Below the pieces are notes generated by a model that was not told the origin of the DNA, made no database searches, and saw only the letters and a list, made by a program, of their open reading frames with translations. A stretch of DNA of 64,000 nucleotides from Flavobacteriales bacterium (GTDB taxonomy: Bacteria > Bacteroidota > Bacteroidia > Flavobacteriales > UBA7430), in the NCBI GenBank assembly GCA_022425195.1, contig JAKMFX010000018.1, positions 1-64,000 of the forward strand, written 5' to 3'. Position numbers and translations under genes: made by a program. This document shows, piece after piece, positions 29,673 through 42,678 of the stretch; position 1 is the stretch's first letter, and every line of letters begins with the position of its first letter.

Positions 29673-29703
29673 TTTGTAGGCCTTGAAAAATCATCTATAT
29701 TTG
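29673..29703 (+). promoter_or_regulatory. Promoter of tRNA-Asp
   Basis: TTTG (29673-29676), 19 bases, TATATTTG (29696-29703): a perfect match to the Bacteroidota primary promoter, 33 bases before the tRNA 5' end. Confidence 0.9.
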
Positions 29704-37282: not shown

Positions 37283-37541
37283 AAGTAAGTTTATGCATGC
37301 AAAGATAAAGTGAATTTATGAATAACAGAAGGCTCTTTTTCTTTTGCTGAGATTTTTAGTTTTCATATAATTTATGTGGTCTTTGGTCAATGATTATATC
37401 CCTTAATCTAATAAACATATCTATAAATGTATATTTTTTAATAACAAACCCTTTTTTAATCACATAAAATGCTTATATTAGCGATGTTTTAGCTCATAAT
37501 TTTTAATAAAACAGACCGATTACAAGCGAACCCCCTCGGAT

Positions 37542-40500
37542 ATGAAACGATACCTACTTTATACATTTATTCTTACTCTTTTGGCTTTGCCGAAACAAGT
37601 CTTTGCTCAGTGTGATTTGCCGCAACCTTTTACAGGGAATACTGGGTCGAACATGACGGTCATGTTGACTCCTGATTTTATTAGTTCTTTGCCTATTTCA
37701 ACTCCAAGTACATATCTCGTAGCCAAAAACTCTAACGGCTTGGTGATAGGTAGTGAGGTAGTTTCGGGAGTAAGCCAAATCACCATTGCAGTTTGGGCTG
37801 ATGACGCGATCACAGATGAAGTAGATGGAGCTATGGCAAATGAATCCATTTCTTTCCAATTGGTAGATGGAGACAATTTATATGATGTTGAGGCGCCCAC
37901 ACCAGTAACTTTTACTGCTAATGGTATGTCTGTCCAATCCAGTTCAGCTATTTTGACATTAAACTGTCAACCCCCTGTTTTGGGTTGTACGAATGAAAAT
38001 GCAGATAATTACAGTGCTGAGGCAACTCAAGATGATGGATCTTGCTCGGTTTCTGGATGTACGGATGAAAATGCTGTAAATTTTAATCCTGAGGCAACCC
38101 AAGATGATAACTCGTGTATAGATGCCACTCCTGGTTGTACTGATGCCTTGGCATGTAACTTCAATCCTTTGGCTAACCAAGATGATGAGTCTTGTTTTTC
38201 AGCAGAAGCAAACAAAGACTGTAATGGGGATTGTATAAATGACGCTGATAATAATGGTACCTGTGACGAAGATGAAGAGGTAGTGTGTACCGATGAAAAT
38301 GCTTGTAATTATTCGAATACGCCCAATGCAACTTCTGACAATACCTTGTGTGATTATCCCGATGCCGACTCATGTGAGGAATGTGTAGATGGTGTTTCGG
38401 TGGTTACTCTCGACAGTGACGGTGATGGCGTGTGTGATGCGGATGAAATATCGGGTTGTCTTAACGAATCCAGATGTAATTACAACAGTAATGCAACCGA
38501 TGGCAGTGCTTGTTCTCCTGCGCTAAAAGACTGTGAAACCTGTGCTACTGATGAAAATGGTGACAATATTCTCGAGGTAGTAGGAAGTATCCTTGTCAAT
38601 GATGATGACGGTGATGGGATATGTAATGATGCTGAGGTAGCAGGTTGTACCAATTCTTTGTCCAGTAATTACAACAATCTCGCAACAGATGATGATGGGT
38701 CCTGTAATGTTGTTGGATGTACTGATGCAGAAGCATGTAATTACAATAAAGATGCTGTAGATGACAACGGTTTTTGTATTGTGGCCGGTGATTGTCAATC
38801 CTGTTCCGGGGAAACCGATGGTACCGGTGTCTTGGTAGACGATGATGTTGCCAATGATCCTACCGCTCTTTGTGATGACATATATACAGAAGAGCAACAA
38901 GGTTCTTTTTCTGAAGGTTATCGATTGAATTTTTCTACGGTAGGAACTGATGTCATTATTAATTTTGAGCTTTTGGATGACGTAAACGGGGTTAATGCGT
39001 ATTTGTGGGGGATGAACCCAAATTTTTCTGAGACTTCTATGACTACAACCACCGATAAAATATTCACAAAGACATTGACCAATCAAGCTATAGGTTCTAC
39101 GATTACTTATGCCTGTAAATTTGATTGGGAAAGCGGAGGTTTGGCTGTTACCAAATATTTCGACTATACCGTAGGAGATTTATTTTGTGGTACTGCAGCC
39201 GTTTGTGATAACAAAACCATTCCAGGTTGTACAGATGTTAATGCTTGTAATTACGATGCTACATCTAATGCCAATGACGGTTCTTGTACCTACGAAGGCC
39301 CCGTTCTAGATTGTTCAGGTATTTGTTTGAATGACGTTGACGGTGATGCAGTTTGTGATGAAAATGAAATCTTAGGATGTGATATCCCCGAGGCTGAGAA
39401 TTACGATGATACAGCTACCGAGAATAACGGGTCCTGTATCGTAAAAGCTTGTATGGATGCTTCTGCATGTAATTACAATGTCAATGCTACTGAGGATGAC
39501 GGCTCTTGTTCTTACCCTGATGCTGGATATGATTGTAATGGAGATTGTATCAACGATGCTGATGAAGATGGTATATGTGATGAGGACGAAATTTTGGGAT
39601 GTATGGACAACACCCGATGTAATTACGATGCTTCGGCTACCGATGACGAAGGCTGTTTACCTGCTTTAGATGGTGTTTGTGAAACCTGTTCCTTGGATGA
39701 AGATGAGAAACCATTTACTGACGGTACTGGACTTATTGTGGATAATGACATTAATGACAATGGTGTTTGTGATGAAAATGAGGCGGGTTGTACACGTCCT
39801 AATGCAGACAATTACAATCCTGAAGCCATTGCGAATGACGGTTCTTGTCTTTACAATGGTAATGATGCCTGTGATCTCGTTATTGATACCATCATTAATA
39901 CAGGGGTAAACATGACCGTGATGTTAACTCAACCTTTCATCAGCTCCCTTAATATTACAGATCCAGATGCTTATCTTGTTGCAAAGTCTTCTGATGGATC
40001 TATTGTTGGTTTGCAATCAGTTTCAGGAGTCATTCAAGAGACAATGGCTATTTGGGGGGATGATCAATCTACTCTTGAAATAGATGGAGCCCCTGAAGGA
40101 GACCTAATTGTGTTTCAATTGAAAAATAAAAATATCTTATATGATGTTGAAATGCCTATTCCAGTTGAATTTATAACTAATGAGATAACAGCTCAGCCCA
40201 CATCAGCTGTACTTTCATTCAATTGTTCTGGATCACTAGGTTGTAATGACCCTATGGCGGATAATTTCGATACGTCTGCTACCATCGATGATGGGTCCTG
40301 TACTTATAGCCCTTGTAATGCACTAGTTGCCTCAGATTTTGCCATTGAATTCGATTCAGATAATGCCAAACCTGTTTTGACCTACAAAGTTAAAAATACG
40401 CTTTCCGATCAGGATTTCTTGACACCAAATTTTGAACTGTTTTTGTACTCTAATACTTTTGAGTTTCTTGACACGACTTACTATTCGGGTGCAACCATAC

Positions 40501-41528
40501 CTAGAAATGGTTCTCAAACCATAAGCATACCATTGTACAACGATTTTACCGAATATCTGATTCCAGATTCAATTTCTGGTACTGTTAGGGTTACTGGATC
40601 AGGAAGTATTGATAGTTTGAGTGTTGGTTGTGATGTATTTTTTGATAAAGTAACAATTAATACGGATCAAGTTGGTTGTAAACAAAATGGGTCCTACAAC
40701 TACAGTGAATTTGTTACTATTGATAATGGTATGTGTGTAGAAGCTTTGAGTGTGACGATTGATATGGAAGGCCCGATCTGTAGTTATGATTATGGTTCCG
40801 CCATCATTCATGTTACGGGAGACTCTAGAAGCATTAGATCAAATTACACTTCAGATTCATTGTATAATTGGCTTGCACCATCGGGTGCTATGACCATGCA
40901 AGATTCCATTCGATTTGATAATGGATATGCCACCTTAGAAGGTCTTGATGCTGGGGATTACGTTATTGGAATCAAAGATTCCGTTCTTGTAAAGAATGAT
41001 ACACTAGAAGTGCTTAGCTTGGATACCTTTACCATAACAAAACCGGATCCTATAGAGGTTGAAGTCTTAAGGCGTGATTCATTGGTTTACAGTGTGAATC
41101 AAGATGATGTTGTCTTTCAGCAATGGCTTTTCAAGGGAGTACCTCTTCAACAAGATAAATTCAAAGCGCATTATCCACAACATAAAGGCTTGTACCAAGT
41201 ATATGTAGAAAATGCTGATGGTTGTGGTTATTATTCGAAGTCTGTTCTTGTGTTGGAACTCGGTGTTGAAGATTCCGAAGATGATCTGTTCCGTTTATAC
41301 CCAAACCCTACGGAGTCTGAGCTCAACGTAGACCTAGCTAATTTAAGAGATGACGCAACTGTTGTTTTAACGGATGTGTTGGGTCAACAGCTGCAACACT
41401 TACTTGTGAATGCAGGTTCCTCAGAATCTACCTATACTTTTGATGTTTCTGAGTACCCAAGTGGATTGTATTTCCTTAGAGTTAATCAGGGTAGAAGCCA
41501 GTTGGTGAAGCGATTTGTTAAAAAATAA
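37542..41528 (+). CDS. Large secreted T9SS protein with 14 GC-D-NY-DGSC modules
   Basis: A 1328-residue exported protein: signal peptide (about 1-22), an N-terminal domain (about 32-146; NMTVMLTPDFISSLPI) and a second copy of it (about 785-900; NMTVMLTQPFISSLNI), with about 14 cysteine/aspartate-rich modules of the GCTDENACNYNPEATQDDGSC type in between and after. Some are followed by calcium-loop-like DADEDGICDEDE segments. The end (about 1245-1328) is a type A sorting domain (LYPNPTESELNV...GLYFLRVNQG, VKRFVKK). Surface localisation via T9SS is expected. Binding partner unknown; adhesion or matrix roles are inference. Confidence 0.9.
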   Translation: MKRYLLYTFILTLLALPKQVFAQCDLPQPFTGNTGSNMTVMLTPDFISSLPISTPSTYLVAKNSNGLVIGSEVVSGVSQITIAVWADDAITDEVDGAMANESISFQLVDGDNLYDVEAPTPVTFTANGMSVQSSSAILTLNCQPPVLGCTNENADNYSAEATQDDGSCSVSGCTDENAVNFNPEATQDDNSCIDATPGCTDALACNFNPLANQDDESCFSAEANKDCNGDCINDADNNGTCDEDEEVVCTDENACNYSNTPNATSDNTLCDYPDADSCEECVDGVSVVTLDSDGDGVCDADEISGCLNESRCNYNSNATDGSACSPALKDCETCATDENGDNILEVVGSILVNDDDGDGICNDAEVAGCTNSLSSNYNNLATDDDGSCNVVGCTDAEACNYNKDAVDDNGFCIVAGDCQSCSGETDGTGVLVDDDVANDPTALCDDIYTEEQQGSFSEGYRLNFSTVGTDVIINFELLDDVNGVNAYLWGMNPNFSETSMTTTTDKIFTKTLTNQAIGSTITYACKFDWESGGLAVTKYFDYTVGDLFCGTAAVCDNKTIPGCTDVNACNYDATSNANDGSCTYEGPVLDCSGICLNDVDGDAVCDENEILGCDIPEAENYDDTATENNGSCIVKACMDASACNYNVNATEDDGSCSYPDAGYDCNGDCINDADEDGICDEDEILGCMDNTRCNYDASATDDEGCLPALDGVCETCSLDEDEKPFTDGTGLIVDNDINDNGVCDENEAGCTRPNADNYNPEAIANDGSCLYNGNDACDLVIDTIINTGVNMTVMLTQPFISSLNITDPDAYLVAKSSDGSIVGLQSVSGVIQETMAIWGDDQSTLEIDGAPEGDLIVFQLKNKNILYDVEMPIPVEFITNEITAQPTSAVLSFNCSGSLGCNDPMADNFDTSATIDDGSCTYSPCNALVASDFAIEFDSDNAKPVLTYKVKNTLSDQDFLTPNFELFLYSNTFEFLDTTYYSGATIPRNGSQTISIPLYNDFTEYLIPDSISGTVRVTGSGSIDSLSVGCDVFFDKVTINTDQVGCKQNGSYNYSEFVTIDNGMCVEALSVTIDMEGPICSYDYGSAIIHVTGDSRSIRSNYTSDSLYNWLAPSGAMTMQDSIRFDNGYATLEGLDAGDYVIGIKDSVLVKNDTLEVLSLDTFTITKPDPIEVEVLRRDSLVYSVNQDDVVFQQWLFKGVPLQQDKFKAHYPQHKGLYQVYVENADGCGYYSKSVLVLELGVEDSEDDLFRLYPNPTESELNVDLANLRDDATVVLTDVLGQQLQHLLVNAGSSESTYTFDVSEYPSGLYFLRVNQGRSQLVKRFVKK
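37980..40310 (+). repeat. Tandem array of Cys/Asp-rich module codons
   Basis: Most of the 14 degenerate repeat units of about 60-130 bases, each encoding GC-x3-A-NY-x3-A-x2-DDGSC, lie here, interrupted by EF-hand-like acidic stretches and one non-repetitive insert (about 38890-39220). The nucleotide copies differ in synonymous positions, so the array is old. Confidence 0.8.
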
Positions 41529-41560: not shown

Positions 41561-41591
41561 TTTGTTGGAGTCGCAAATTAATTTATATTTG
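41561..41591 (+). promoter_or_regulatory. Perfect promoter of candidate structured RNA
   Basis: TTTG (41561-41564), 19 bases, TATATTTG (41584-41591): identical in form to the tRNA-Asp promoter. It starts 33 bases after the large T9SS gene and faces no annotated plus-strand gene, so it must drive something in 41598-41838. Confidence 0.85.
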
Positions 41592-41597
41592 TGTAAA

Positions 41598-41838
41598 CTT
41601 TATTTGAATTCATCAATGATGATCACCCCTCAAGAGAATCCAGATTGGATTATTTCCTTAACAAAAAGCGACAAGTCAAAAGACTTGGGCCTTTTAGTTT
41701 CTCTTAATTTTCTACCGAAATTACTGTGATTTTAGGGATTGAAATAAAAGCCACAACACAGTTGTGTCTTATTAAAACGAATTAAATTCCCCCCAGGATT
41801 TTTTTATATGGGCTTCCTTCTTAGGAAGCCTTTTTTTT
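41598..41838 (+). ncRNA. Candidate structured small RNA (6S-like layout)
   Basis: Starts six bases after a perfect -7 element. The 5' end (41598-41609) pairs with 41738-41750 to form a closing stem; GATCAC (41621) pairs with GTGATT (41726), and AAGAGAA (41632) with TTCTCTT (41699); inner hairpins AATCCA/TGGATT and CAAGTC/GACTTG fill the apex. This nested rod with an asymmetric internal bubble resembles 6S RNA, but identity is unproven. A 37-codon frame (41616-41729) is an alternative explanation. The 3' end may be near 41775 (hairpin CACAAC/GTTGTG) or at the terminator 41811-41838. Confidence 0.5.
41811..41838 (+). terminator. Rho-independent terminator
   Basis: Stem GGCTTCCT/AGGAAGCC with loop TCTT followed by eight T. 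It is on the plus strand, 280 bases after the T9SS gene, and most likely ends the transcript from the promoter at 41561. Confidence 0.88.
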
Positions 41839-41865: not shown

Positions 41866-42678
41866 TTAGAGTATCGCTTGACGTACTCGAACGAGTCTGT
41901 CTAACAAGCCTTCTAGTTGGTCTAAAGGAAGCATGTTGGCTCCATCGGACTTGGCTACGGAAGGATTGGGGTGGGTTTCAATAAACAAACCGTTTGCACC
42001 TGCAGCAATTCCTGCTTTTGCAATGGTTTCAATCAGTTGAGGTTTACCTCCTGTAACTCCAGAGCTCTGATTGGGTTGTTGTAGTGAATGGGTCACATCC
42101 AGAACAACTGGAACGTCTAGTGATTGTAGGGTAGGTATTGCACGCATGTCTACGATTAAGTCTTGATACCCAAACATGGTCCCTCTGTCGGTTACCGCAA
42201 CGTGAGGATTTCCGGAATCGATGATTTTCTGGACCGCAAACTGCATGGATTCAGCCGATAAAAATTGTCCTTTTTTGATGTTTACGGCCTTTCCTGTTTT
42301 CGCTGCAGCGACCAATAAGTCGGTCTGTCTGCACAGAAATGCAGGTATTTGCAGCACATCTACGTAGGCTGCAGCCATTTTAGCATCTTCTGCAGTATGA
42401 ATGTCTGTTACCGTTGGTATGTTGAAGTGGGTACCTACCTTCTGTAAAATCTTAAGGGCTTTTTCGTCTCCTATGCCTGTAAAGGAATCCAATCGTGAGC
42501 GGTTGGCTTTCCGAAAAGAGCCTTTGAAGATAAAAGGTATTTCGAGTCGATCGCTGATCTCTTTAATTTTCTCTGCAATTTCAAAGGCCATTTCTTCTCC
42601 TTCAATAGCACAGGGGCCCGCGAGAAGAAAGAAGTTCGTTGAATCTTTGTGATTAAGGTTCTGTAGTGCCTTGAGCAT
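41866..42678 (-). CDS. kdsA: 3-deoxy-8-phosphooctulonate (KDO-8-phosphate) synthase
   Basis: Condenses phosphoenolpyruvate with arabinose 5-phosphate in the KDO branch of lipopolysaccharide synthesis. The 270-residue protein shows FFLLAGPCAIEGEEMAFEIA, FKGSFRKANRSR, TVTDIHTAED, QIPAFLCRQTDLL and VVLDVTHSLQQPN, the family barrel motifs. It is the last gene of a minus-strand run, three bases after the hydrolase. Its presence supports a Gram-negative envelope. Confidence 0.96.
   Translation of the reverse strand: MLKALQNLNHKDSTNFFLLAGPCAIEGEEMAFEIAEKIKEISDRLEIPFIFKGSFRKANRSRLDSFTGIGDEKALKILQKVGTHFNIPTVTDIHTAEDAKMAAAYVDVLQIPAFLCRQTDLLVAAAKTGKAVNIKKGQFLSAESMQFAVQKIIDSGNPHVAVTDRGTMFGYQDLIVDMRAIPTLQSLDVPVVLDVTHSLQQPNQSSGVTGGKPQLIETIAKAGIAAGANGLFIETHPNPSVAKSDGANMLPLDQLEGLLDRLVRVRQAIL

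Follow-up and report, generated by a model that had tools for sequence, protein, structure and literature searches.

We lean towards the view that the RNA encoded at positions 41598-41838 of the DNA stretch analyzed here (64,000 nucleotides, hereafter the window) is a sponge that would titrate a group of G-loop sRNAs away from the C-repeat leaders of secreted NTGxNMT genes. The genome sequences directly show that the RNA belongs to a conserved unit, that G-loop genes and C-repeat leaders exist, and that the sequences are complementary (Table 1). The comparison comprised three species: the genome under study (G000) and two congeners (G001 and G002).

Table 1. Features of the small RNA locus and of the gene upstream of it, in window coordinates.
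Feature	Position	Strand	Evidence
Upstream gene, 1,328-aa protein with type IX secretion tail and NTGxNMT domains	37542..41528	+	Por_Secre_tail match
C-rich leader ACCCCCUCGGAU abutting the AUG of the 37542 gene	37530..37541	+	kept in G002 and G001 orthologues; duplex -22.4 kcal/mol
Proposed small RNA, about 240 nt	41598..41838	+	conserved unit with promoter and terminator; RNAalifold z (see text)
5' hairpin UCAUC/GAUGA, holds AUG of short frame	41610..41622	+	kept in G002, broken in G001
Possible 36-codon frame (MITPQENP...)	41619..41729	+	open at equal length in G002
5' C-rich site ACCCCUC	41625..41631	+	invariant in three species; weaker G-loop complement, duplex -19.9 kcal/mol
Helix P1, 5' strand	41632..41641	+	consensus fold, pairs with 41796-41805; 96.6% of P1 cells paired
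Hairpin P3	41727..41753	+	one pair with two-sided change
3' C-rich site AAUUCCCCCCAGGAUU	41785..41800	+	near invariant; 16-nt complement of tandem-type G-loop sRNAs; -30.5 kcal/mol
Helix P1, 3' strand	41796..41805	+	consensus fold; overlaps 3' C-rich site
Intrinsic terminator	41810..41838	+	stem 100% paired in three species

The RNA is well supported as an independent small RNA gene by the signals that surround it. On the plus strand, TTTG (41561-41564) is followed after 19 nucleotides by TATATTTG (41584-41591), forming a promoter (41561-41591) of the primary type of Bacteroidota (PMC7366714) from which transcription is predicted to start around position 41598. An earlier sequence-only reading of this region had described the promoter as having the same form as that of tRNA-Asp, which is indeed the case (the latter is located at 29673). 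A perfect match is by itself weak evidence because such matches are not rare (3 on the plus strand and 1 on the minus strand of the window, and 0 to 2 per strand in mononucleotide shuffles), and the promoter is credible because it is conserved: its -33 element, spacing and -7 element are kept in both congeners. The terminator that this reading placed at 41811 was confirmed as an intrinsic one, formed by positions 41810-41831 and a T-run (to 41838), with a nearly invariant stem. Gene order and the RNA unit are the same in G001 and G002, and the promoter, a 5' block (AUGAU(A/C)ACCCCUCAAG) and a 3' block (AUUAAAUUCCCCCCAGGAUUUUUUAUAU) with the terminator stem are nearly invariant in the three species; fourfold-degenerate sites in both flanking genes have only 32-45% identity to the congeners. 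The two C-rich sites are the most conserved internal blocks of the RNA. Between the stop codon of the upstream gene and the shared terminator we found no plus-strand intrinsic terminator, and therefore read-through from that gene would also carry the putative sponge. The convergent downstream gene (41866-42678, minus strand) was read as kdsA on the basis of its sequence. We discarded a cis-acting leader, because there is no plus-strand gene 3' of the RNA and the next gene is convergent. A minus-strand hairpin (41752-41766) could end the kdsA mRNA past the C-block, which would leave this mRNA with an antisense G-rich 3' UTR.

The fold of the RNA is also conserved. The single-sequence fold is better than that of shuffled sequences (z -2.6), and RNAalifold gave z -5.6 for G000 and G002 (before the terminator) and -2.85 for the three species when compared with column shuffles that keep conservation; the middle of the three-species alignment is poor for G001. 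The consensus is closed by helix P1, which is different from the closing helix initially proposed. In the whole model, which adds to P1 the 5' hairpin, the terminator and two hairpins located near and 3' of the short frame's end, 93% of the cells pair, versus 39-56% when the partners were slid. Covariation support is thin because just one pair in the model has a two-sided change. The three long-range helices of the sequence-only reading are present in this sequence but are not conserved (79% of the cells pair, with many breaks and no two-sided change). The C-blocks are partly paired in the predicted folds of G000 and G001. The earlier description of an unannotated structured small RNA is thus upheld, with promoter, terminator and fold all conserved. 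Neither an exact pattern nor the covariance model R1 matched outside the genus in 396 genomes of the order, and none of the 80 kdsA loci examined on contigs of other species had the RNA downstream of kdsA. Judging from these collections, the RNA is genus-level. In viral contigs, the 3' block had no match, and we attributed a single match to the 5' block to chance.

The G-loop genes came to light when the complement of the invariant 3' C-block was searched for in the three species. The complement pattern matched 46 times in the three genomes, versus 13 times for a reversed-pattern control, and several C-rich or G-rich pattern matches were set aside as coding and unrelated. Four short sRNA-like genes with a G-rich loop are present in G000: the tandem copies A1 and A2, and the variants B and C. 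The tandem genes (G000:C39, L143:1639-2233; same locus in L144 and L145) lie downstream of an alanine-dehydrogenase-like gene. Six copies from three species share an unchanged 34-nt core (ATTTTAATCCTGGGGGGGGTTAGAGTTTATTTTG), and their terminator stems vary with compensatory changes. A TAnnTTTG-type -7 element is present in each copy, as is a common upstream element (AAAAAATGAGTGNNNTCACCTAT), which is conserved and looks like the site of a regulator. A G-loop variant (TTTATCCTGTGGGGGG) sits between A1 and A2, and a further G-loop locus elsewhere consists of TTAATCCTGGGGGGGATTAA and a terminator (L146:1710, L147:1823). Upstream of this last locus, two of the three species (G000 and G002) have a GG-N10-GC element similar to a sigma54 site. 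All G-loop genes that were folded, which are all but the in-between variant, form a hairpin with a G-rich loop. Genus g2 (G003, L158) contains two copies whose core is almost identical, and genus g5 and three genomes of another family have related forms. In L161, L162 and L163 (G181, G350 and G063, of another family), AATTTAATCTGTGGGGGATTAAATTTC is followed by a terminator and is similar to the in-between variant, which suggests that G-loop RNAs extend beyond this family. Rfam gave no gathering-level match for the G-loop genes and nothing convincing below that level. Outside the family, the G-loop model gave weak matches, most of which have no G-runs and look like ordinary terminators; these were not retained. 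A search for Hfq (PF17209) gave no match in G000 and was positive in 5 of 14 control genomes, and we accordingly rejected Hfq-dependence.

The 3' site complements the G-rich loop of the four sRNA-like genes present in the same genome, and in each of the three species 16 contiguous bases pair with the A1/A2 loop. The complementarity of the site thus covers the core that is conserved among several sibling sRNAs, and related species keep the site. Cofolding, which charges for the internal structure that is lost, yielded a gain of 12-22 kcal/mol in 12 of 12 within-species combinations. On the two strands of the window, one other locus reaches an equally strong raw duplex energy, and the argument from complementarity draws on duplex strength in combination with the invariance of both partners.

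We looked for putative targets with sequence patterns and a profile, and the domain profile A5 brought in the other members of the NTGxNMT family. These genes form an expanded family of large secreted proteins (37542-41528 in the window; C39, C16, C6 and C40 in G000), with 28 matches in G000 and 19 in G002, and the NTGxNMT domain itself has no Pfam match. A run of at least 4 Cs within 25 nt of the AUG was found in 7 of the 12 G000 NTGxNMT genes with a readable start, versus 3 of the 49 genes in the window, the NTGxNMT family gene itself among them (p=1.7e-4); this value is partly circular because 5 of the 7 genes were used to build the profile, and among the other seven genes 2 have the leader. 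Five NTGxNMT genes are without a C-rich leader. The loop of the G-loop sRNAs is thus complementary to a homopolymer in the leaders of 7 of the 12 genes, with duplexes of -17 to -29 kcal/mol, and the 3' site of the RNA is the strongest complement measured. The leader of the 37542 gene varies in sequence between orthologues, with ACCCCCUCGGAU in G000, ACCCCCUAGGAU in G002 and ACCCCCCAGUAU in G001, always directly followed by the AUG, and we propose this gene as a target of the G-loop sRNAs. In one orthologous gene the repeat length differs between the three species (C7, C8 and C9), and such differences could tune expression.

From these features we infer that the RNAs are expressed and pair with one another, in which direction they act, and that the RNA at 41598-41838 is a sponge. 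Pairing of the G-loop sRNAs with C-repeats at start codons would block initiation. The 3' site of the sponge and, more weakly, its 5' site would pair with the G-rich loops of A1, A2, B and C, and titration of the G-loop sRNAs would raise the output of secreted NTGxNMT proteins. Helix P1, whose 3' strand overlaps 41785-41800, would also open when this site pairs. Counting against the sponge are the partial pairing of the C-blocks in G000 and G001, the five NTGxNMT genes that have no C-rich leader, and genus g2, which has G-loop sRNAs but no match to the RNA.

Other explanations of this locus were weighed against the same evidence. The sequence-only reading had proposed a 6S-like fold, and the long-range closing helix and the roughly right size of the RNA would fit a 6S-type RNA; 6S-Flavo RNA (RF01685) is likewise a structured Bacteroidota RNA with a long-range helix. 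However, Rfam gave no 6S family at this locus even at E<=10, and the conserved long hairpin with a central bubble is absent, the consensus being a closing helix around several hairpins. The helices on which the proposal was based are those that are not conserved, and the genome has its own 6S gene elsewhere, directly downstream of a zapA-like gene (G000:C21:5916-6041; L001:1501-1626). We thus regard a 6S identity as exceedingly improbable. The 6S gene scores 38.5 bits with the 6S-Flavo model (curated cut-off 85) and 31.1 bits with Bacteroidales-1, and matches with a similar score were found once in each congener and in three other family members. The Rfam 6S-Flavo model therefore misses this lineage, with matches far under the cut-off in six genomes of the family. 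The short frame (41616/41619-41729), which had been named as a competing explanation, remains a live alternative reason for part of the conservation of the RNA. The transcript would then be a small mRNA or a dual-function RNA for a peptide of 33-37 residues (MITPQ..P...), itself a target of G-loop sRNAs that pair with ACCCCUC just past the start codon. This frame exists and is open from the same ATG in both relatives, at equal length in G002 (P=4e-4, column shuffle) and over 33 codons from the aligned ATG in G001. Moreover, dN is 0.25 and dS 0.71 between G000 and G002 (NG86), and the 5' C-block sits where target-gene leaders carry theirs. Set against this, residue-level permutation tests were not significant (p 0.09-0.50), the differences distribute over the codon positions as 10, 7 and 12, the frame in G001 ends at a stop other than the aligned one, and the peptide has no Pfam match. 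Furthermore, a peptide leaves the invariant 3' block, 55 nt past the stop, unexplained. We consider this coding explanation unlikely, though by no means negligible.

C-rich loops are common sRNA seeds, and the RNA could also be an ordinary trans-acting sRNA whose C-rich sites act on G-rich sites in mRNAs, the match with the G-loops being a coincidence of two homopolymer-rich sides. The other window locus that pairs equally strongly with the G-loop core fits this idea, as do the matches to the 14-mer complement that lie inside coding genes. Against coincidence stands the excess of complement matches over the reversed-pattern control in the three genomes, which include at least 2 conserved sRNA-like loci, and the fact that the complementarity continues beyond the C-run to include AGGAUU, with both sides invariant. 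This makes an ordinary sRNA rather improbable. It is also conceivable that the functional strand is the minus strand, with the kdsA mRNA crossing the block and carrying UCCUGGGGGGAAUU in its 3' UTR as one more G-loop element. On this strand the sequence is AAUCCUGGGGGGAAUU, which is like the G-loop core, and there is a weak terminator-like hairpin at 41766-41752. This hairpin is not kept in G001, no minus-strand TAnnTTTG promoter is conserved in the three species, and the conserved promoter and the T-run terminator are on the plus strand, all of which makes a minus-strand function very improbable.

Sponges of this kind have been described in other bacteria. CrfA of Caulobacter crescentus was experimentally shown to be a sponge of the four sibling sRNAs SisA-D, acting with Hfq (PMC12559287). 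Like the RNA proposed here, CrfA is produced from a separate gene and its site covers the conserved target-binding core of the sibling sRNAs, and the targets of the CrfA system include envelope proteins. The systems differ in that Hfq takes part there and has no match here, and in that the code proposed here is a C/G homopolymer. In Vibrio, as far as the account in PMC12559287 goes, QrrX is a sponge of the Qrr sRNAs that promotes their decay. QrrX also acts against a multi-copy sRNA family, but in another phylum and with other sequences, and the decay of Qrr is, in that account, a feature of QrrX. SroC sponges GcvB (EMBO J 2015, as cited in PMC12559287) and is, according to the citing article, processed from an mRNA. 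The link of SroC with the mRNA of a target gene, as presented there, resembles the arrangement proposed here, whereas the RNA at 41598-41838 has its own conserved promoter. On the target side, the loop of the RepG sRNA of Helicobacter pylori reads a length-variable G-repeat in the tlpB leader (PMC8295292). Both systems would have a leader homopolymer that is read by a complementary sRNA loop, with repeat length as a possible dial, and the C7, C8 and C9 variants of one orthologous gene invite comparison with the length-tuned G-repeat of RepG. The difference is that here the arrangement is inverted (G-loop sRNAs and C-repeats), the repeats abut the AUG, there are several sRNAs and a putative sponge, and repeat length is seen in sequences only. 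Among Bacteroidota sRNAs, GibS of Bacteroides thetaiotaomicron pairs at start codons (PMC7366714), as we propose for the G-loop sRNAs. GibS uses a long unstructured 5' seed instead of a homopolymer loop, and no sponge has been described for it.

To our knowledge, the targets of trans-acting sRNAs are barely known in Bacteroidota. A short search of the open-access literature returned no description of a sponge RNA in this phylum, and the one Bacteroides article in it mentions sponges as a class only. We tentatively suggest, as a possibility that we rate a little short of even, that these Hfq-less Flavobacteriales have a homopolymer-coded riboregulatory circuit in which G-loop sRNAs read the start-codon C-repeats of large secreted proteins, repeat length could tune the response, and a C-rich sponge beside one of the targets resets it. 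The sequence suggests that such a circuit would be complete: it would have sibling sRNAs, an antagonist and, as candidate targets, large secreted proteins, of which several show type IX secretion features. If this is true, the length-variable C-repeats at the start codons would be the mirror image of the RepG system of H. pylori.
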